From: Amycolatopsis jiangsuensis
Lineage (GTDB): Bacteria > Actinomycetota > Actinomycetes > Mycobacteriales > Pseudonocardiaceae
NCBI RefSeq assembly: GCF_014204865.1
Contig: NZ_JACHMG010000001.1
Span: 3,684,501-3,748,500 of the forward strand
Reading direction: 5' to 3'
Length of the DNA: 64,000 bases
The position numbers and the translations under genes are program-made. The notes below the pieces were generated by a model that made no database searches, was not told the origin of the DNA, and saw nothing but the letters and a program-made list of their open reading frames with translations. Each line of letters begins with the position of its first letter. Position 1 is the first letter of the stretch. Below, in pieces: positions 53,083-60,837 of the stretch.

Positions 53083-53964
53083 TCAGTCCGGCAGCATGGG
53101 CATCTCCACTCCGGGATCGTGGCGCAACAGGGCGGCCCGGGTCACCGCCGCGGCCCCGAACCGATCGCGGACGCTGTCCATCGCGACGTCCAGCGGATCG
53201 GCAGGCGCCGACCGAGCGGACGTGCCCGACCGAGCAGACGAGGCGGGCGAGGGAGAAGATCGAAACGACGAAACGGGCTTCGGTGGCTGCGCGTCCGCCT
53301 GGAGGCCAGACCTCGACAGCGGAGCGGAACCCGTCGAAGCCGAGCCCCGTGGCGACCTCGGCGATGGGTCGGGTACCGATGCCGGGTTGGACTCCACAAG
53401 CGGGATGGCCGTCACCGGTGCCGGAATGGGCGTCACCGACGGGTGGGACGTCGACGGCAGTCCGACCGCCGGAGGCGAGGTGAACGTCGGTGGCGAGGTG
53501 AACGTCGGTGGTTGAGCGGACGTCGTCGGTTGAGCGGACGTCGGTGGTTGTGTGGGCGTCGTCGGCGCAGCATGCATCGGCGGCACGGACCTCGCCGGCG
53601 CAGCAGACGTCGGCAACGCAACGAGTCCCGGCTCAGCAAACTTCGGCGGCGCAGCATCCCTCGACGCAACGGACCTAGACGGCGCAACCCGCGACGACGC
53701 CTGCGCAGACCTCGTCGGGTCAGCGTGCCTCGCCGGCTCAGCGGACGTCGGCGGCACAACGTGCGTCGGCTGGCCGGACATCGGCGACTCAGCAAACCTC
53801 GGCCGCGCAACGTTCATCGGCAGCGCGACGAGTCTCGACTCAGCAAACGTCGGCGGCGCAGCATCCCTCGACGCAACGGACCTAGACGGCGCAACCCGCG
53901 ACGACGCCTGCGCAGACCTCGTCGGGTCAGCGTGCCTCGCCGGCTCAGCGGACGTCGGCGGCAC
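53083..53964 (-). pseudogene. dinB: Detached, frameshifted C-terminal part of DinB
   Basis: In this frame the low-complexity Ala/Pro/Ser/Thr linker (units such as RHADPTRSAQASSRVAPSRS) leads to PLDVAMDSVRDRFGAAAVTR and a final MPMLPD, the conserved C-terminal tail of actinobacterial DinB polymerases. The tail is the end of the upstream polymerase gene, displaced by a 1-nt frame change near 54031-54042. Without that change the gene would encode about 775 residues, against about 400-480 usually. No independent start with a ribosome site is evident. Confidence 0.8.
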
Positions 53965-53970
53965 AACGTG
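53642..53970. repeat. Exact 122-bp direct repeat within the DinB linker
   Basis: 53642-53763 is identical to 53849-53970, 207 bp apart (69 codons, so the reading frame is kept). Similarity extends further on both sides with scattered differences. It lies in a longer field of 12-18-bp degenerate units covering about 53500-54260. The perfect identity points to recent duplication. Confidence 0.93.
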
Positions 53971-55409
53971 TGTCGGCTGAGCAGCGCGCCTCGGCTGGCC
54001 GGACGTCGGCGACTCAGCAAACTTCGCCGGAGCAACTGCCTCGTCAACTCAGCAGACGTCGCCGATACAACGGGCCCCGACGACTCAGCGAACCTCGGCG
54101 GCACAACGAGCCTCGTCAGCTCGGCAGAACTCGCGGGCGGCGCAGCGTGCCTCGTCGGCGCAACGGGCGACGGCTGAGCAACGGGCCTCGGCGGCTGAGC
54201 AACGTGCCTCGACGGTGGAACGGGCGACGGCGGAAGGACTGCCGCCGGAGGTGAAGTTGTCGCTGACCTGGCGCTCGCCGGTGTTGCAGCTCTCGCTGGT
54301 AGGGCGTCTGCCGATGGTGGAAGGGGCGTCGGCTGGAGGGTGTCGAAAGGGAGCGTCAGCTGGACTGCGTGGGGGCTGTCCAGGTTCGTCAGCGACAGGC
54401 CCAGCAGCGTCAGCCCTCGGTCGTGGATCGTGGGCTCGGCGGCGGACAGCAGGGCACATGCTGCTGCCAGGAGGGTGGCCGTGTGGTCGGTGCATTCTCC
54501 CAGCTTGCGCGAACGCGTGGCGCGGGTGAAGTCGGCGAATCGCAGGCGGAGCACCACCGTGCGGCACACCCGTGACGCCGCGCGGAGGCGGCGGGACAGT
54601 CGGTCCACAATGGACATCAGTATCTCGTCCAGCTCGGCCCGGGAACGTCTTCGGCGGCCGAGTGCCCGCTGCGCACCCATCGAACGGCGGCGCCGCGCCG
54701 GCTGGACCGCGCGTGGATCACGACCGTGGGCAAGGAGATGCAGATGCCGGCCGGCGCCGGGACCCAGCAGGGACACCAGATCCACCTCCGGCAGCAGCGC
54801 CACCTCCCGCACGGTGGTGACGCCGAGCGCCCGCAGCTTCGCCGACGTCACCTTCCCCACTCCCCACAGCCGCTCCACCGGCAGCGGGTGCAGGAACTCC
54901 AGCTCTCCCTCCGGCGGCACCACCAGCAGCCCGTCCGGCTTCGCCACCGCGCTGGCCACCTTCGCGAGGAACTTGGTGCGCGCCACCCCGACCGTGATCG
55001 GCAGCCCGACCTGCGCCAGCACCTCCGCACGCAGCCGCGTCGCGATCTCCGACGGTCGCCCTGCGATCCGCCGCAGACCGCCGACGTCGAGGAACGCCTC
55101 GTCGATGGACACGCCCTCGACCACGGGCGTGGTCCGCCGGAACACCTCGAACACGGCTTTGCTCGCCGCGCTGTACACCGGCATACGCGGCGGCACCACC
55201 ACCGCCTGCGGGCACAGCCGCCGAGCCTGCGCACCACCCATGGCGGTGCGCACGCCGAGCGCCTTCGCCTCGTAACTCGCGGCCAGCACCACGCCGCCGC
55301 CGACGATCACCGGCCGGCCACGCAGCCGGGGCGCGTCACGCTGCTCGACCGACGCGTAGAACGCGTCGAGGTCGGCATGCAGGATCGGTCCTTCGTTCGT
55401 CACGAACAC
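53814..55409 (-). CDS. dinB: DNA polymerase IV (Y-family DinB), catalytic part plus frameshifted tail
   Basis: Open frame of 531 residues. HADLDAFYASVEQRD (near 11-25) and GVSIDEAFLDVGG (near 98-110) supply the three catalytic acidic residues; GVGKVTSAKLRALGV is the thumb helix-hairpin-helix; the little finger follows (about 240-340). QLTLPF near residue 350 is a canonical beta-clamp-binding motif. From about residue 458 the frame slips into Arg-rich sequence and ends at 53814, while the family tail continues in another frame. Catalysis and clamp binding should survive. It does error-prone lesion bypass. GTG 55409 and GTG 55403 are both possible starts; a LexA box overlaps them. Confidence 0.88.
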   Translation of the reverse strand: MFVTNEGPILHADLDAFYASVEQRDAPRLRGRPVIVGGGVVLAASYEAKALGVRTAMGGAQARRLCPQAVVVPPRMPVYSAASKAVFEVFRRTTPVVEGVSIDEAFLDVGGLRRIAGRPSEIATRLRAEVLAQVGLPITVGVARTKFLAKVASAVAKPDGLLVVPPEGELEFLHPLPVERLWGVGKVTSAKLRALGVTTVREVALLPEVDLVSLLGPGAGRHLHLLAHGRDPRAVQPARRRRSMGAQRALGRRRRSRAELDEILMSIVDRLSRRLRAASRVCRTVVLRLRFADFTRATRSRKLGECTDHTATLLAAACALLSAAEPTIHDRGLTLLGLSLTNLDSPHAVQLTLPFDTLQPTPLPPSADALPARAATPASARSATTSPPAAVLPPSPVPPSRHVAQPPRPVAQPSPVAPTRHAAPPASSAELTRLVVPPRFAESSGPVVSATSAELTRQLLRRSLLSRRRPASRGALLSRHTLCRRRPLSRRGTLTRRGLRRRRRGLRRLGPLRRGMLRRRRLLSRDSSRCR

Positions 55410-55485: not shown

Positions 55486-57255
55486 TCACTTGCTCTCCAC
55501 CTCGATCTTCCAGACGCCGTCTTGCTGCACCATGGTGTAGGTGTGGTGCTGGACCGTGGTGCTGCCGTTCCGGCGGCGGTAGGTGATCTGAGCGCTGAGC
55601 GTGTTGCTGCCGGTGACCTTGACGTCGTTCGCGGACACCGAGGAGAACCCGTCCCAGAAATCGGAGTAACTCTCGAATGTCTGGTTGCGCTCAGCGCGGA
55701 ACTTGTCGCTGAGCATCGTCCAGCTCACCTTCAAGTTCGTGGGGATCTGCGAGAAGTAGCTACGCAGCGCCGCGGACATCGCTTCGGGCGACGAATCGGC
55801 GGAACTCGACGAGACCGGCGGGCTCGAGGAAGACGAGGACACCGGAGGGGAACTGCTCGGCGTGGACACGGGCGCCGACGTCGACGGCGCGGGAGCCGGG
55901 GGGTTCGCGACCGGGTCCGGCTGGTCCTGCCTGCGCGTGAGCACGACGGTGAGGAGCACGGCGAGCACCACGACCAGTGCGCCCGCCCCGGCGAGGATCA
56001 TCGCGCGACGTCTTCGATCGGCCGGCAGCGAGGCCGTGTCCCCCGGCGCGCCACCGGCGGTCGAACCGGATGCAGCATCCGGACCGGGTGAACCGGCCGC
56101 GGAGGCCGCAGCACCGTGCGTGGCATCGAAGGTAGGCGCTCCTCCAGCGGCATCGCTCGCCGCAGAAGCCGGGCCGGTCACACCTGCACCAGCGCCCGAG
56201 TCACCGGCGGCCGAGCCCGCCACGCCTGCACCCGAGCCCGCCACGCCCGCTCCAGCGGCCGAGTCACCGGCACCCGCTACCCCCGCGCCCGAGCCCCATT
56301 CCCCACCACCGGCAGCCGAGCCGACACCGTGCCCACCCGCGGCGGAGCCCCAACGCCCACGGCCACCCGGCAGCACGGTCATCGGTGCGGTCTTCGGCAG
56401 CGTCGGCGGTTCGGGGACCGTCACGACCGGCGTGACGCCTCCGTCGAGCGCGCGCAGTTCGGTGACCACCTCCGCCATCGACGGACGGTCGTCGGGCTTC
56501 AGTTCGAGCAGTTTCAGCAGCAGCGGTTCGAGCTTCCCCGCCTGCTTCGGCGGGGTGATCGACCCGCTGGAAACCCGGTACAGCAAGGCGATCGCGTTGT
56601 CCGACGTACCGAACGGCGGCGCGCCTTCCACCGCCATGTACACCGTGGCACCGAGCGCGAACACGTCGGAGGCGAACGTGGCCTCCTCGCCACGGGCGAC
56701 TTCCGGCGCGAGGAACGCCGGCGTCCCGGAGATCTCCCCGGTCGCGGTGAGCGTGACGTCACCCATCGCGCGGGAGATGCCGAAGTCGGTGACCTTGACC
56801 GTGCCGTCGTCGCCGAGCAGCACGTTGCCCGGTTTGACGTCGCGGTGCACCACGCCGGCCCGATGCGCGGCGGCCAGCACGCCCGCCAGCTGCACCGCGA
56901 TCGGGATGACCTCCTCGACGCCGAGCGGGCCGTCCTCGTGCAGTTTCACCGACAGGCTGCGCGAGGGCAGGTATTCCATGATCAGCCACGGCCGGTCCTC
57001 GTACTCGACCACGTTGAACACGGAGATCGCGTTGGGATGCTGCAGCCGGGCCGCGATGCGTGCCTCGCGCATGGCACGGTTCTTGGCCTCTTCGACCTTG
57101 TCCTCGCCCTGGTTGACGGGCATGAGGAGTTCCTTCACCGCGACGATCCGGCCGAGGATCTTGTCCTCACCCCGCCAGACCATGCCCATGGCACCGCTGC
57201 CGACGAGTTCGACGAGCTCGTAGCGACCGGCGACCTGCCGGCTCTCCTCGGTCAA
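55486..57255 (-). CDS. Transmembrane Ser/Thr protein kinase (PknB-like)
   Basis: 589 residues from TTG 57255, with GAGGGG upstream. Kinase domain residues about 10-265: GSGAMGMV glycine loop, VAVKEL lysine, HRDVKPGNVLL catalytic loop, TDFGISRAMG, GTPAFLAPE. A long Ala/Gly/Ser-rich linker (about 300-415) leads to one membrane helix (about 420-443), a Pro/Ser stalk, and an extracellular C-terminal domain of about 100 residues resembling an NTF2-like fold (NLKVSWTMLSDKFRAERNQT). Typical of actinobacterial sensor kinases, signalling from the envelope. It is divergent from an MFS gene. Confidence 0.93.
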   Translation of the reverse strand: MTEESRQVAGRYELVELVGSGAMGMVWRGEDKILGRIVAVKELLMPVNQGEDKVEEAKNRAMREARIAARLQHPNAISVFNVVEYEDRPWLIMEYLPSRSLSVKLHEDGPLGVEEVIPIAVQLAGVLAAAHRAGVVHRDVKPGNVLLGDDGTVKVTDFGISRAMGDVTLTATGEISGTPAFLAPEVARGEEATFASDVFALGATVYMAVEGAPPFGTSDNAIALLYRVSSGSITPPKQAGKLEPLLLKLLELKPDDRPSMAEVVTELRALDGGVTPVVTVPEPPTLPKTAPMTVLPGGRGRWGSAAGGHGVGSAAGGGEWGSGAGVAGAGDSAAGAGVAGSGAGVAGSAAGDSGAGAGVTGPASAASDAAGGAPTFDATHGAAASAAGSPGPDAASGSTAGGAPGDTASLPADRRRRAMILAGAGALVVVLAVLLTVVLTRRQDQPDPVANPPAPAPSTSAPVSTPSSSPPVSSSSSSPPVSSSSADSSPEAMSAALRSYFSQIPTNLKVSWTMLSDKFRAERNQTFESYSDFWDGFSSVSANDVKVTGSNTLSAQITYRRRNGSTTVQHHTYTMVQQDGVWKIEVESK

Positions 57256-57389
57256 CGGAAAACCCCTCGATGCGACGATTCACGGACGGCGACCTCCCAG
57301 TTTTCCACGAACCGGCCCGGGCGCCTCCGACGACCCACCCCGGCCCGCGGGGGTTGCTCCGAGTGCCCGCGCCAGGACAGGCTGAGCAC

Positions 57390-58622
57390 ATGACCACCAC
57401 GGCACCGTCGTTCCGGAACGTGTTCGGTGTCGGGGAATTCCGCGCGTTGTGGGTGGCTCATGTGCTGTCCGTGGCCGGAGATCAACTGGCCAGGGTGGCG
57501 CTGACGGTGCTCGTGTTCGACCGTACCGAGTCCGCCGGCTGGGCCGCCGGAACGTACGCGCTGACCTATCTGCCGGATCTGCTCGGTGGCGCGCTCGGCG
57601 GCCTGGCGGACCGGTTCCCGCGCCGTTCGGTGCTCGTGGTGGCCGACGTGCTGCGTGCGGTGCTCGTCGCGGCGATGGCGATCCCCGCCATCCCGTGGCC
57701 GCTCGCCGCGGGGCTGCTCGTGCTCGTGCAACTGGCGGCCGGTCCGTTTCAGGCGGCACGCCAAGCGGTGCTGCCGGACCTGCTGGGCGAGGAGAAACTG
57801 CCGACCGGACAGGCGATCCTGTCCTCGACCTACCAGGCGGCCCTCGTCGTGGGCTTCGGCGCGGGCGCGGCCGTGGTGACGTGGCTGGGGGTGTCCGGCG
57901 CGCTCTGGGTGGACGCGGTCACCTTCGCCGTGTCGGCGGCCGCGTTGCGCTGGGGGCTGCGGCCGTATCCGGTCACGACGGTCGTCGAACGCACGCCACA
58001 GTGGGCTTCGCTGGTCGCCGGCTGCCGGCTCGTCGCCCGGGACCGGAAACTGCGATCGCTGCTGGCGATCGCGTGTTGCTGCGGGTTCTACGTGGTCCCC
58101 GAAGGACTGGCCGTGCCGGTGGCGGCGCAGCTCGGCGGCACCGGGGTGCTCGGCTGGCTGCTGGTTGCCAACCCGGTCGGCACGCTGCTGGGCGCGCTGC
58201 TGATCAGCCGTCTGCCGAGGGCACGGCAGATCCGCTGGCTCGGTCCGCTCGCCGTGGCCAGCAGCCTGGTGCTGCTGCCCACCGGCTGGACGCCCGCGTT
58301 GCCGGTGCTGGTCGTGCTGTGGACGGTGTCCGGCGCCTGCTCCGCGCACGACCTGATCACGCAGGTGCAGTACAGCCTCGCCGCACCACCCGGGCAACGC
58401 GGCCAGGTGATCGGCGTGGCGATCGCCGCCCTGCGCGCGGCACAGGGTCTCGGCATCATCGTCGCGGGAGCACTGACGCAGGCGTTCACGCCGACGACAG
58501 TGGTCGCGATCGCGGGCGTCGCGGGTGCGCTGTGCGCAGCCGTGGCCGGCACCGCGTGGGCCCGCGCGGTGCGGCCCCGCCGAAGTCCCCTCGACGGGGC
58601 CACGCCACCTCCGGCGCAGTGA
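57390..58622 (+). CDS. MFS exporter (DHA3/EntS-like)
   Basis: 410 residues from ATG 57390, with about twelve hydrophobic helices. FGVGEFRALWVAHVLSVAGDQ and DRFPRRSVLVVADVLRA fit the DHA3 group that includes macrolide and enterobactin exporters. Single gene, divergent from the kinase; converges on the micro-cistron array, whose last member ends 19 bp beyond its stop. An exporter of the array's peptides or of the distant siderophore would be speculation. Confidence 0.88.
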   Translation: MTTTAPSFRNVFGVGEFRALWVAHVLSVAGDQLARVALTVLVFDRTESAGWAAGTYALTYLPDLLGGALGGLADRFPRRSVLVVADVLRAVLVAAMAIPAIPWPLAAGLLVLVQLAAGPFQAARQAVLPDLLGEEKLPTGQAILSSTYQAALVVGFGAGAAVVTWLGVSGALWVDAVTFAVSAAALRWGLRPYPVTTVVERTPQWASLVAGCRLVARDRKLRSLLAIACCCGFYVVPEGLAVPVAAQLGGTGVLGWLLVANPVGTLLGALLISRLPRARQIRWLGPLAVASSLVLLPTGWTPALPVLVVLWTVSGACSAHDLITQVQYSLAAPPGQRGQVIGVAIAALRAAQGLGIIVAGALTQAFTPTTVVAIAGVAGALCAAVAGTAWARAVRPRRSPLDGATPPPAQ

Positions 58623-58641: not shown

Positions 58642-58665
58642 TCAGGTCCAGTTGTTGTCACGCAT
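58642..58665 (-). CDS. Micro-cistron 9: MRDNNWT
   Basis: Last member of the array: ATG, seven residues, TGA. SD GAGGAGGTGAAAGGC before the ATG. It ends 19 bp from the convergent MFS stop, and no gene follows on the same strand for 1.3 kb. Confidence 0.65.
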   Translation of the reverse strand: MRDNNWT

Positions 58666-58708
58666 GCCTTTCACCTCCTCGACGGCACGTTTCCGGGACG
58701 GCGACCGC

Positions 58709-58735
58709 TCACCGGGTCCAGTTGTTGTCACGCAT
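58709..58735 (-). CDS. Micro-cistron 8: MRDNNWTR
   Basis: Eight codons then TGA. SD GGAAGGAGG, 5 nt from ATG. Its final Arg is CGG where four other copies use CGC, a silent difference. Confidence 0.65.
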   Translation of the reverse strand: MRDNNWTR

Positions 58736-58782
58736 CCGGGCCTCCTTCCGCACGCAGAGCAAACCGGGCGGACGTACGGGCT

Positions 58783-58809
58783 TCAGCGGGTCCAGTTGTT
58801 GTCGCGCAC
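58783..58809 (-). CDS. Micro-cistron 7: VRDNNWTR (GTG start)
   Basis: GTG replaces ATG with the remaining residues unchanged; Arg-2 is CGC. SD GAGGAGGTGAAACCC. The start-codon swap is a change that translation tolerates. Confidence 0.65.
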   Translation of the reverse strand: MRDNNWTR

Positions 58810-58847
58810 GGGTTTCACCTCCTCGCCACGAGACGGATCGAGTCTTT

Positions 58848-58874
58848 TCAGCGGGTCCAGTTGTTGTCACGCAT
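58848..58874 (-). CDS. Micro-cistron 6: MRDNNWTR
   Basis: Eight codons then TGA; Arg-2 is CGT. SD GAGGAGGTGCCCGG. The spacer upstream is nearly identical to that of micro-cistron 5, marking a recent duplication. Confidence 0.67.
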   Translation of the reverse strand: MRDNNWTR

Positions 58875-58915
58875 CCGGGCACCTCCTCTCTCGCAGAACC
58901 GGCCGGCCACTCGCT

Positions 58916-58942
58916 TCAGCGAGTCCAGTTGTTGTCACGCAT
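58916..58942 (-). CDS. Micro-cistron 5: MRDNNWTR
   Basis: Same peptide as its neighbours but Thr is ACT instead of ACC, a silent difference. SD AAGGGAGGTGGCCTGG. Confidence 0.67.
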   Translation of the reverse strand: MRDNNWTR

Positions 58943-58984
58943 CCAGGCCACCTCCCTTCTCACAGAACCGGCCGGCCATTCGCT

Positions 58985-59011
58985 TCAGCGGGTCCAGTTG
59001 TTGTCGCGCAT
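58985..59011 (-). CDS. Micro-cistron 4: MRDNNWTR
   Basis: Arg-2 is CGC, Thr ACC, final Arg CGC, then TGA. SD AAGGGAGGTGGCTACGG. Confidence 0.67.
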   Translation of the reverse strand: MRDNNWTR

Positions 59012-59053
59012 CCGTAGCCACCTCCCTTCTCGCAAAACGGCCAGCCTCCGGCC

Positions 59054-59086
59054 TCAGCAGGTCCAGTTGTTGTCCCGCAAGTCCAT
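59054..59086 (-). CDS. Micro-cistron 3: MDLRDNNWTC
   Basis: ATG-GAC-TTG then CGG and the common core, ending in Cys and TGA. SD AAGGGAGG with 4 nt to ATG 59086. TTG 59080 occupies the position of the ATG/GTG in other copies, so the ancestral start was probably there and the frame has been extended by two codons. Confidence 0.6.
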   Translation of the reverse strand: MDLRDNNWTC

Positions 59087-59134
59087 TTCGCCTCCCTTCG
59101 ATGACGTTCGGGCGCCGCGCGCGCGGCAGTTCGG

Positions 59135-59155
59135 TCACCAGTTGTTGTCCCGCAC
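59135..59155 (-). CDS. Micro-cistron 2: VRDNNW, six residues
   Basis: The shortest member: GTG, five more codons, TGA directly after Trp. SD GAGGAGGTGTCCACG. It defines the minimal conserved core and shows that the trailing Thr-Arg is dispensable. Confidence 0.63.
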   Translation of the reverse strand: MRDNNW

Positions 59156-59226
59156 CGTGGACACCTCCTCTCACCTGCGAAGACGGAAGTCTCGACCCGG
59201 GGTCGAGGCTCGAGCCGGTCGTCCGG

Positions 59227-59259
59227 TCACGACCGGACCGTCCAGTTGTTGTCGCGCAC
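59227..59259 (-). CDS. Micro-cistron 1: VRDNNWTVRS
   Basis: GTG start; core followed by Thr(ACG)-Val-Arg-Ser and TGA. Its SD GGGAGG runs into the TGA of the preceding 48-codon gene, which ends 5 nt before this GTG, so the two should be translationally coupled. Confidence 0.66.
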   Translation of the reverse strand: MRDNNWTVRS

Positions 59260-59264
59260 TGTCG

Positions 59265-59411
59265 TCACCTCCCTTGTCGCAACTGCACTACCGGGTGAGT
59301 AGCACACAAATCCGTCACGGAGAGTGCCAACAGTGACCGCGACAGCCAGCCGGGCCAACGGCCACGATCTGCTGGTCGGTCACAGCTTCGTGGCGTTTTG
59401 TCGTCACGCAC
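59265..59411 (-). CDS. First gene of the array: 48-residue peptide beginning VRDDKTPR
   Basis: GTG 59411 follows GGGGAGGTGACCACT, the same ribosome site as the micro-cistrons. The first codons give V-R-D-D-K where the others have V/M-R-D-N-N, so it is a relative that has lost the Trp and runs on to 48 residues with two Cys, several Trp and basic residues and a hydrophobic centre (WLSRSLLALSV). It leads the transcript and is coupled to micro-cistron 1. No known family is recognised; it could be a precursor peptide or a decayed copy. Confidence 0.55.
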   Translation of the reverse strand: MRDDKTPRSCDRPADRGRWPGWLSRSLLALSVTDLCATHPVVQLRQGR

Positions 59412-59550
59412 AGTGGTCACCTCCCCTGCTCCCCGCCGGGCGTTGGGCTGTCCGGGCGAAAATGCTCCGGCTGATCTCAGAGTCCGGGCAACGGGCAGCA
59501 CACGACGCGCCTCGTCGTTTACGGTAGAAGCCAACCGGGTGAGGTGAAGA

Positions 59551-60837
59551 GTGCGCGGACGAACTGCCGGGTGGTTCACGGGGTGGCGCCTGTGGCAGCT
59601 GCCCCCGCACGTGCGCACTTACGTACTGCTCGTGAACGTCGTCGCGGTCGGCGCGTCGCTGAGCACAGCGTGGCTCGTCCCGGTCACCAGAACCGATCTC
59701 CTGCGCTTCGGGGTGCTCGCCGTGTGCGCGGCGGCCGCGATCGAGGCGACGCGCCACATCGAGCGACAGCGTGAGTACAACCGGGCCGCCACCGTCGCAT
59801 ATGTGGACACCAAGGCCGTCTGGAGCATCGCCGCGGTGATCGCGCTCCCGGCAGTGCTGGCCACGGCGATGGTCGTGTTCACCTACGCGGTCGCGTGGTG
59901 GCGGATCTGGCCCCGCGAACGGCCGGTGCTGCCGCACCGCTGGATCTTCTCCGCCGCGTCCGTGCTGTGCGGTACGCAGGCCGCGATCTGCGTGCTCGCG
60001 CTCGGCATGCATCACTACCCCGGCGTCCTCGCGTCCGGCTTCCTGCCGGGATTGACCGACCTCGCCGTGATCGTGCTCGCCTGCGGTCTGCGCTGGGCGA
60101 TCAACACCGCGCTCGTGATGGCCGCGATCGCGCTGTCGAGCGCGCCGCGGTCGCTTTCGGAGCTGTTCGCCGGCTTCGGCGACCAGCTGCTGGAGGCCGG
60201 CGCGATCGGGCTCGGCCTGGTCACCGCCGCGCTCCTGCTGCTGGCCAACCCACTGCTGCTGGCCGGGGTGGTGCTGGCGCTGGTCGCGTTGCACCGCGGC
60301 CTGCTGCTGACCCAGTTCCAGCGCGACGCCCGCACCGACGTCACCACGGGCTTGGCCACGAAACGCTGGTGGCGCACCGTCGCCGAGCAGTACCTGGACC
60401 GCGCCCGCAGCGGGCAGGGCACGGTCGGTGTGCTGCTGCTGGACCTGGACCACTTCAAGGCGATCAACGACACCTACGGCCATCCGACCGGCGATCTGGT
60501 GCTGCGCGAGATCGCCATCGCGCTGTGCGCGGAGGTGCGCGAGCAGGACATGTGCGGGCGCTGGGGCGGCGAGGAGTTCGCTATCGTGCTGCCGAACGTG
60601 CCCAGCGAGGAGCACCTCGGCCAGCTCGCCGACCGGATCCGCTGCCGGGTGCCCCAGGTCGTGGTGGCACTGCCCGACCGGGACACGGTGATCAGCGACC
60701 TCACCGTGTCCATCGGCTGCGCCCTCTACCCGGCCGAGCACCTCTCCAGCATCGACGATGTGCTCGTCGCCAGCGACACCGCGCTGTACCGGGCGAAACA
60801 GGCCGGCCGCAACCGCGTCGAGCTCGCCACCCGCTGA
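59551..60837 (+). CDS. Membrane diguanylate cyclase (GGDEF)
   Basis: 428 residues from GTG 59551 with GGTGAGGTGAAGA upstream. Seven to eight membrane helices fill residues about 20-260, forming a MASE-like sensor; the GGDEF domain follows with LLLDLDHFKAINDTYGH and the active-site loop GRWGGEEFAIVLP. An RxxD inhibitory site (REQD) sits five residues before GGEEF, so product inhibition by cyclic di-GMP is expected. It makes c-di-GMP from two GTP at the membrane. No EAL domain. Divergent from the micro-cistron array across 139 bp. Confidence 0.93.
   Translation: MRGRTAGWFTGWRLWQLPPHVRTYVLLVNVVAVGASLSTAWLVPVTRTDLLRFGVLAVCAAAAIEATRHIERQREYNRAATVAYVDTKAVWSIAAVIALPAVLATAMVVFTYAVAWWRIWPRERPVLPHRWIFSAASVLCGTQAAICVLALGMHHYPGVLASGFLPGLTDLAVIVLACGLRWAINTALVMAAIALSSAPRSLSELFAGFGDQLLEAGAIGLGLVTAALLLLANPLLLAGVVLALVALHRGLLLTQFQRDARTDVTTGLATKRWWRTVAEQYLDRARSGQGTVGVLLLDLDHFKAINDTYGHPTGDLVLREIAIALCAEVREQDMCGRWGGEEFAIVLPNVPSEEHLGQLADRIRCRVPQVVVALPDRDTVISDLTVSIGCALYPAEHLSSIDDVLVASDTALYRAKQAGRNRVELATR

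Follow-up and report, generated by a model that had tools for sequence, protein, structure and literature searches.

Here we describe a tandem array of nine micro-cistrons on the minus strand of a 64,000-nucleotide stretch (the window) of the genome of the soil actinomycete Amycolatopsis jiangsuensis, each of which carries its own Shine-Dalgarno (SD) sequence and encodes a near-identical tiny peptide built on the core RDNNW. The array occupies positions 58642-59259 and is flanked by a divergent gene for a predicted membrane diguanylate cyclase (DGC) and a convergent gene for a transporter of the major facilitator superfamily (MFS). We are highly confident that the units are real, selected peptide genes that are functionally tied to this locus. 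On balance, we favor a reading in which they encode leaderless signalling peptides that would be exported by the MFS protein and sensed by the DGC, altering cyclic di-GMP (c-di-GMP), with a pherotype-like divergence among lineages. The evidence, which is at the level of sequence, comprises the SD-start-stop units and their conserved residues, the coupling of the units to the cyclase in position and taxonomy, their coupling to the MFS gene, and peptides that are specific to lineages and paralogues. The features in question are as follows.

59227..59259, minus strand: micro-cistron 1, VRDNNWTVRS, SD gggaggtg
59135..59155, minus strand: micro-cistron 2, VRDNNW, SD ggaggtg
59054..59086, minus strand: micro-cistron 3, SD gggagg; MDLRDNNWTC is possible from an extra in-frame ATG two codons 5', or LRDNNWTC from a TTG start at 59080
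58985..59011, minus strand: micro-cistron 4, MRDNNWTR, SD gggaggtg
58916..58942, minus strand: micro-cistron 5, MRDNNWTR, SD gggaggtg
58848..58874, minus strand: micro-cistron 6, MRDNNWTR, SD ggaggtg
58783..58809, minus strand: micro-cistron 7, VRDNNWTR, SD ggaggtg
58709..58735, minus strand: micro-cistron 8, MRDNNWTR, SD aaggagg
58642..58665, minus strand: micro-cistron 9, MRDNNWT, SD ggaggtg
59265..59411, minus strand: degenerate tenth unit 5' of unit 1, GTG CGT GAC GAC AAA (VRDDKTPRS..., about 48 residues)
59412..59550, strand not assigned: divergent intergenic segment between array and cyclase, where promoters for the array (minus) and the cyclase (plus) are expected from position
59551..60837, plus strand: membrane DGC, divergent from the array, PF00990 E 4.5e-40, AlphaFold2 (AF2) pLDDT 91.5, proposed receptor
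57270..58622, plus strand: MFS transporter, convergent with the array, PF07690 E 5.7e-27, proposed peptide exporter

The nine-unit array is confirmed and far from chance expectation. As the original prediction had stated, nine minus-strand RDNNW units of 6-10 residues, each with its own SD, are spaced 65-104 nucleotides apart and end in TGA; start-to-start distances are 104, 75, 69, 69, 68, 65, 74 and 70, the consensus is (M/V)RDNNW(T)(R), the genes span 7-11 codons with ATG, GTG or TTG starts, and a GGAGG sequence lies approximately 4-10 nucleotides 5' of each start codon. A rigid pattern of SD plus core, allowing up to 3 mismatches, recovered six of the nine units in the window and nothing in 100 dinucleotide shuffles of it. 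RDNNW is common to nine SD-preceded micro-open reading frames (micro-ORFs), but no core recurred in any of 500 doublet shuffles of this region. When the whole genome was scanned with up to 2 mismatches, the nine array units and one 2-mismatch site elsewhere were found (the reversed-pattern control gave 3), making the array the sole one of its kind in 8.05 Mb; the same genome encodes one cyclase of the array-linked kind at E<=1e-60.

Conservation is concentrated within the coding units. Across 203 units from 16 loci, the spacers hold approximately 0.1-0.3 bit per position and the variably spaced SD approximately 1 bit, while the first two bases of the arginine codon reach 1.9-2.0 bits and the two codons after the tryptophan up to about 1 bit (GAC AAC AAC TGG was preset by the search pattern in this analysis). 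With a looser definition, consisting of an SD, a start and at most two residues differing from RDNNW, 159 of 162 micro-ORFs from 12 loci encode exactly RDNNW and the other three are one residue off, in support of the original reading that the encoded residues are conserved. Among 161 units with third positions left free, start codons are ATG (81), GTG (79) or TTG (1) and arginine is encoded by CGC, CGT, CGG or CGA, plus one CAG glutamine codon, whereas aspartate is always GAC (161/161) and asparagine always AAC (322/322). These two codons account for 88.9% and 92.1% of usage in the flanking genes and for 98.3% and 100% in ribosomal-protein-region genes of the genome; the invariance thus resembles that of highly expressed genes, although mutual copying of units or a nucleotide-level constraint could also produce it. 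Odd units among relatives (VRDNHW, VRDDNWTR, VRNNNW and VCDNTWPR) remain in frame, and among the relatives examined the repeat did not persist with a broken frame, except in the degenerate tenth unit of the window itself. The stop of that unit, which starts at 59411, falls within the SD of unit 1. At the corresponding slot one relative (L074) reads VRDDDRW* when translated by eye, and some others, also read by eye, have short ORFs of unrelated sequence that follow a similar SD. The strong SD of the last unit, micro-cistron 9, is retained in many relatives.

Within the genus, the RDNNW peptides occur in part of the genomes and track one cyclase. TGCGNGACAACAACTGG is present in 36 of 80 genus genomes, with 1-20 units per genome, and these are exactly the 36 genomes that encode a cyclase 71-100% identical to that of the window. 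At the family level TGCGNGACAACAACTGG is present in 24 of 297 genomes, distributed over 5 of 46 genera. A scan of named genomes yielded 29 stretches, of which 20 are from Amycolatopsis, two from Kutzneria, and one each from Qaidamihabitans, Saccharomonospora, Jiangella anatolica (an array of 8 units) and Phytoactinopolyspora; the remaining three (L055, L059 and L068) lie within longer frames, were taken as chance and were rejected as true arrays. Among 396 phylum genomes the SD-plus-core pattern matched 11 besides its own, at one place each, and the reversed-pattern control likewise matched about a dozen. Two cyclase queries against 394 class genomes matched, at the E-values used, nothing beyond the genome itself and a single further family; a cyclase homologue from Kribbella is 42% identical.

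Linkage between peptide, cyclase and MFS gene extends well beyond the RDNNW core. Counting distinct stops, 87 loci contain 247 SD-preceded, tryptophan-ended micro-ORFs in 57 kb of array strand, as compared to none on the opposite strand, 6 in 84 kb of cyclase antisense, and 7 start sites in 174 kb of shuffled sequence (for which nested starts were counted separately and two loci were entered twice). Among 118 untruncated cyclase loci, 99 have both peptide and MFS, 13 have the peptide only, none has the MFS only and 6 have neither (Fisher p 8e-6), such that the peptide accompanies the cyclase in 99/99 MFS-bearing loci and in 13/19 MFS-less ones. The 118 loci combine 98 from a first set, from which second copies (L009, L014, L016 and L060) and truncated loci (L024, L116, L133, L135 and L156, all with peptides) were left out, with 20 more distant genus paralogues. 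Three loci with no anchored cyclase (L045, L046 and L048, the last of which looks like a second contig copy of L047) fall outside these counts. On a tree of 103 cyclases, which omits the same four second copies, the core label (24 states, counting 'none') needs 32 changes, as compared to a shuffled mean of 54.9, and none of 200 shuffles was as low. Because relatedness and a core list drawn up after the fact inflate these figures, the linkage and tree statistics describe the pattern and do not test it.

The peptides change together with the cyclase. Where the DGC is ~43-63% identical to that of the window, the same slot encodes different peptides, largely uniform across each locus: MADNNW/MSDNNWSR, MSDNNW, MRDVNW/MRKDVNW/MRDVNWTTK, VRDTNWTVR/MRDTNW, MRENNW/MRKQENNW and VRNNTWRRNNTWS. 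Other family members encode MRENTWRENTWK, MRTNEIW or MTNKDW, or single ORFs with tandem cores (STDW x6, SNNW x4, PADW x3, PTDW x3, PNEW x2 and PAEW x2). In a second family, taken as Jiangellaceae because its locus L132 and the J. anatolica locus L053 are one and the same, micro-cistron units were found in 28 of 29 fetched loci (31 matches), with the cores DNTW, DTTW, DTNW, DVNW, DSNW, DNNW, DNHW, DNKW, DSTW, ENCW, ANSW and GNSW; two of its loci (L125 and L127) mix two cores. All 20 of the more distant genus paralogues, which were chosen before their upstream regions were read, have a micro-ORF, encoding MRNRES (4-6 copies) or MRNRDS, SRDF/SSRDF, MSDKGW/MSDRGW, MRNKDL, or polycore ORFs with 5-9 PTDW. 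For six of these 20 the peptide is encoded by a lone short ORF and is individually less well supported; two of them (L191 and L199) were recognized by eye. Since several of these peptides have no tryptophan, this residue is common and not universal. In some lineages the tandem-core ORFs, STDW, PTDW and PADW among them, hold 2-9 cores each, and this interchange of many one-core cistrons with one multi-core ORF suggests selection on core dosage.

Paralogous DGCs within one genome, of which there are two or three, usually have different peptides. The cores are DNHW, DNKW and ANSW in G829; DNTW and GNSW in G845 and G884; DNNW and ANSW in G761; DNNW and NKDW in G044; NNTW and PTDW in G006; DVNW and MRNRES in G030; PTDW and MRNRDS in G008; and DNNW and (S)SRDF in G002, G014 and G063. 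The exceptions are the second cyclase of G934 (L138) and the three of G088 (L098, L099 and L100), beside which no micro-ORF was detected; the MFS neighbor was likewise not detected at the latter three loci. Distinct peptides for each paralogous cyclase are the pattern expected of insulated signal-receptor pairs.

The original prediction overlooked that the two flanking genes, both conserved partners, accompany the peptides, which diverge along with them. The protein encoded at 59551-60837 is, by profile and motif, a predicted diguanylate cyclase comprising seven predicted helices and a GGDEF domain, in which the GGEEF motif and the I-site REQD are intact; the catalytic motif and an I-site RxxD are present in 107/107 DGC sequences, and among the 120 of 213 homologues listed every name given is some form of 'GGDEF domain-containing protein' or 'diguanylate cyclase'. 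Because GGDEF matches took up the results of fold searches with the whole model, the membrane half was modelled on its own. We tentatively liken its model to S-component/5TMR receptors, with an extra N-terminal helix and a six-helix core; Pfam 5TMR was not among the matches listed for three DGC membrane halves at E<=10. The MFS protein matches NCBIfam TIGR00900 below the family cut-off, and no solved relatives were found at E<=0.001. Neither protein had a match in PADLOC, and an anti-phage system was rejected.

In the mechanism we propose, a single transcript from the divergent intergenic region would carry the nine independently started micro-cistrons, each of which would be translated into formyl-(M)RDNNW(TR), with unit number fixing the peptide dose. 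The convergent MFS protein, judging from its co-occurrence, would export the peptide, which may be trimmed towards its W-ended core, and the peptide would bind the membrane domain of the adjacent DGC, with its predicted S-component/5TMR-like fold, thereby altering c-di-GMP production. A scan of the intergenic segment (59412-59550) with a sigma-70 consensus gave zero matches. On the array strand at ~58555-58600, within the MFS 3' end, a GC-rich hairpin (GGCCCCG...CGGGGCC) was noted by eye, as were similar ones in the relatives read; it is a possible terminator candidate, though without a T tract.

Several observations weigh against signalling through the adjacent cyclase, and some of them favor other readings. 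Faster evolution of the membrane half of the DGC was not borne out (59.5% vs 58.7%). The 13 loci that have peptide and cyclase without the MFS gene, together with the lack of any leader on the peptides, suit an intracellular regulator, in which unexported peptides would act in the cytosol or during synthesis on the cyclase or the MFS protein, with copy number setting stoichiometry; co-divergence with the cyclase would suit contact on either side of the membrane. We nonetheless consider this unlikely, as 99 of the 112 peptide loci have the convergent MFS gene, which never occurs where the peptide is missing, the membrane fold of the DGC is tentatively receptor-like, and pherotype-like divergence is generally commoner for intercellular signals. 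The six cyclase loci without peptides, and two loci (L045 and L046, which share a genus code with Saccharomonospora saliphila) that have a peptide (MRDNNWTFRCDNNWT and MRDNNWTL) and a matching MFS gene but no cyclase, could instead mean that the peptide is a signal for some other protein, to which the cyclase is merely a frequent neighbor or a downstream element. That RDNNW units and the cyclase coincide exactly, genome by genome, in the genus, and that paralogous cyclases have peptides of their own, leaves this improbable.

The same orphan peptide-MFS pairs would also fit a short ribosomal natural product, antimicrobial or metallophore-like, for which the MFS protein would be exporter or immunity factor and the cyclase a regulator, with any modification enzymes encoded elsewhere. 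Tiny genes such as bytA can encode such products, and the MFS protein resembles multidrug-type families, although below their cut-offs. Set against this, most core residues are polar, paralogues within a genome have different cores, and in the first 21 loci, with rough gene calls, the only gene clusters that cross genera are the cyclase, the MFS gene and one three-member cluster; we judge it no likelier than a separate receptor, and a modified product in particular was rejected because no enzyme recurs alongside the peptides. A non-coding or translation-coupled regulatory RNA, or one antisense to the MFS 3' end, in which the frames would be incidental, draws on the invariant aspartate and asparagine codons of the 161 units and on the array running towards the MFS 3' end. 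It is strongly disfavored, and to our mind barely credible, because the spacers are unconserved (~0.2 bit), residues differ between lineages while SD, start and stop are kept, and cores are fused in some polycore ORFs and in-frame doublets; an RNA element was also rejected with no Rfam match up to E 0.5. An attenuator or leader peptide was rejected, as the original prediction had argued, since no same-strand gene lies directly downstream and the next gene, MFS, is convergent. The broader statement that no same-strand gene follows holds for this immediate neighbor but not further on, where a kinase gene lies 1.4 kb past the array. Of the three options then offered, a signalling peptide fits best, a natural product is possible and the regulatory RNA has fared worst; overall, that interpretation is partly supported.

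Beyond the convergent MFS gene, the next same-strand gene is:

55486-57255, minus strand: protein kinase, 1.4 kb past the array

In the first 21 loci, a divergent GGDEF protein was found in 18, a convergent MFS protein in 18 and both in 17, and tblastn shows the MFS at L041 as well; a kinase of the same cluster was found in 10, all within the genus. Six window proteins were scanned and gave no TPR/RRNPPA domain and no P450; no modifying enzyme was seen next to the array either, in agreement with the original prediction. No homologue of the MFS protein turned up beside the MRNRES/MRNRDS cyclases (L190-L193), and the convergent gene of L191, read by eye, appears to encode a short-chain dehydrogenase. 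Further along the window, at 53814-55409 on the minus strand, lies the gene for a protein of the DNA polymerase IV type; it has IMS domains and a long C-terminal tail of repetitive, low-complexity sequence.

IM-2 is a signal of the butyrolactone type, c-di-GMP governs development in relatives, and we know of no assigned signal for most such cyclases. According to a review, quorum sensing is reported for only 25 of 342 actinobacterial genera, nine of them with experimental evidence, actinobacterial signalling generally uses modified peptides and gamma-butyrolactones, and Amycolatopsis is tabulated with an IM-2-type signal (PMC4748050). We regard it as an even call whether the arrays represent a large family of actinomycete peptide signals, so far undescribed, that a membrane DGC would read directly: leaderless, mostly 5-10 residues long, encoded by up to 20 micro-cistrons or up to 9 cores per ORF, with a dedicated MFS exporter, two dozen or more pherotypes and several insulated channels per genome. 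If true, ribosomal peptide quorum sensing would be wired directly to c-di-GMP, with gene dosage operating at the scale of seven-codon genes, and genes of 7-11 codons would evade ordinary annotation. A peptide-cyclase pair this compact, which comes with natural variants of specificity, would make both questions, that of actinobacterial signals and that of cyclase inputs, testable, and would serve as a natural experiment on how the specificities of ligand and receptor change jointly. The original prediction knew of no described multi-copy system of this sequence, and we found no description of such a peptide-cyclase system among the papers listed from the open-licence literature searched, which does not prove its absence from print.

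Several known systems share individual traits with the array. Biarylitides, encoded by bytA, are minimal ribosomal peptides of actinomycetes with genes of pentapeptide scale, a scale that the array units share; however, the array is multi-copy, has a cyclase and an MFS gene as neighbors and no adjacent P450, and RDNNW contains one aromatic residue and no Tyr/His pair. ComX is a polymorphic peptide pheromone with a tryptophan near its C-terminus and pherotypes that co-diverge with a membrane receptor, both of which have parallels here, but in our loci there is no recurring modifying enzyme and no long propeptide, and the output is a GGDEF domain rather than a histidine kinase. For receptors with a 5TMR/S-component fold, GGDEF is a known output domain and the ligand named is pyruvate, for BtsS (PMC11109136). 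The DGC has this output, and its model tentatively resembles such receptors in the extra N-terminal helix and the six-helix core, but no Pfam 5TMR match was listed for its membrane half, and the sections of PMC11109136 used here name no peptide partner. Leaderless communication peptides (LCPs) of Firmicutes, exemplified by SIP-RopB, are 8-residue leaderless peptides whose ORF lies beside the receptor gene (PMC10518010). As judged from the portions of that source drawn on here, they share with the array an ultrasmall SD-preceded ORF beside a receptor gene, a leaderless product of ~8 residues, lineage codes that track the receptor, and having been missed by annotation. However, the LCP receptor is a cytosolic RRNPPA regulator, whereas here it is proposed to be a membrane diguanylate cyclase with an MFS partner; LCPs are mostly hydrophobic (aliphatic/aromatic), whereas the peptides described here are polar (e.g. 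RDNNW, RGNSWD and RNRES); and the hosts are actinomycetes with as many as 20 units per array, or with polycore ORFs, while arrays go unmentioned in those portions of PMC10518010. Although the array peptides are not members of the LCP class, because receptor family and composition fail to match and copy structure and hosts also differ, that class offers the tightest analogy for them.
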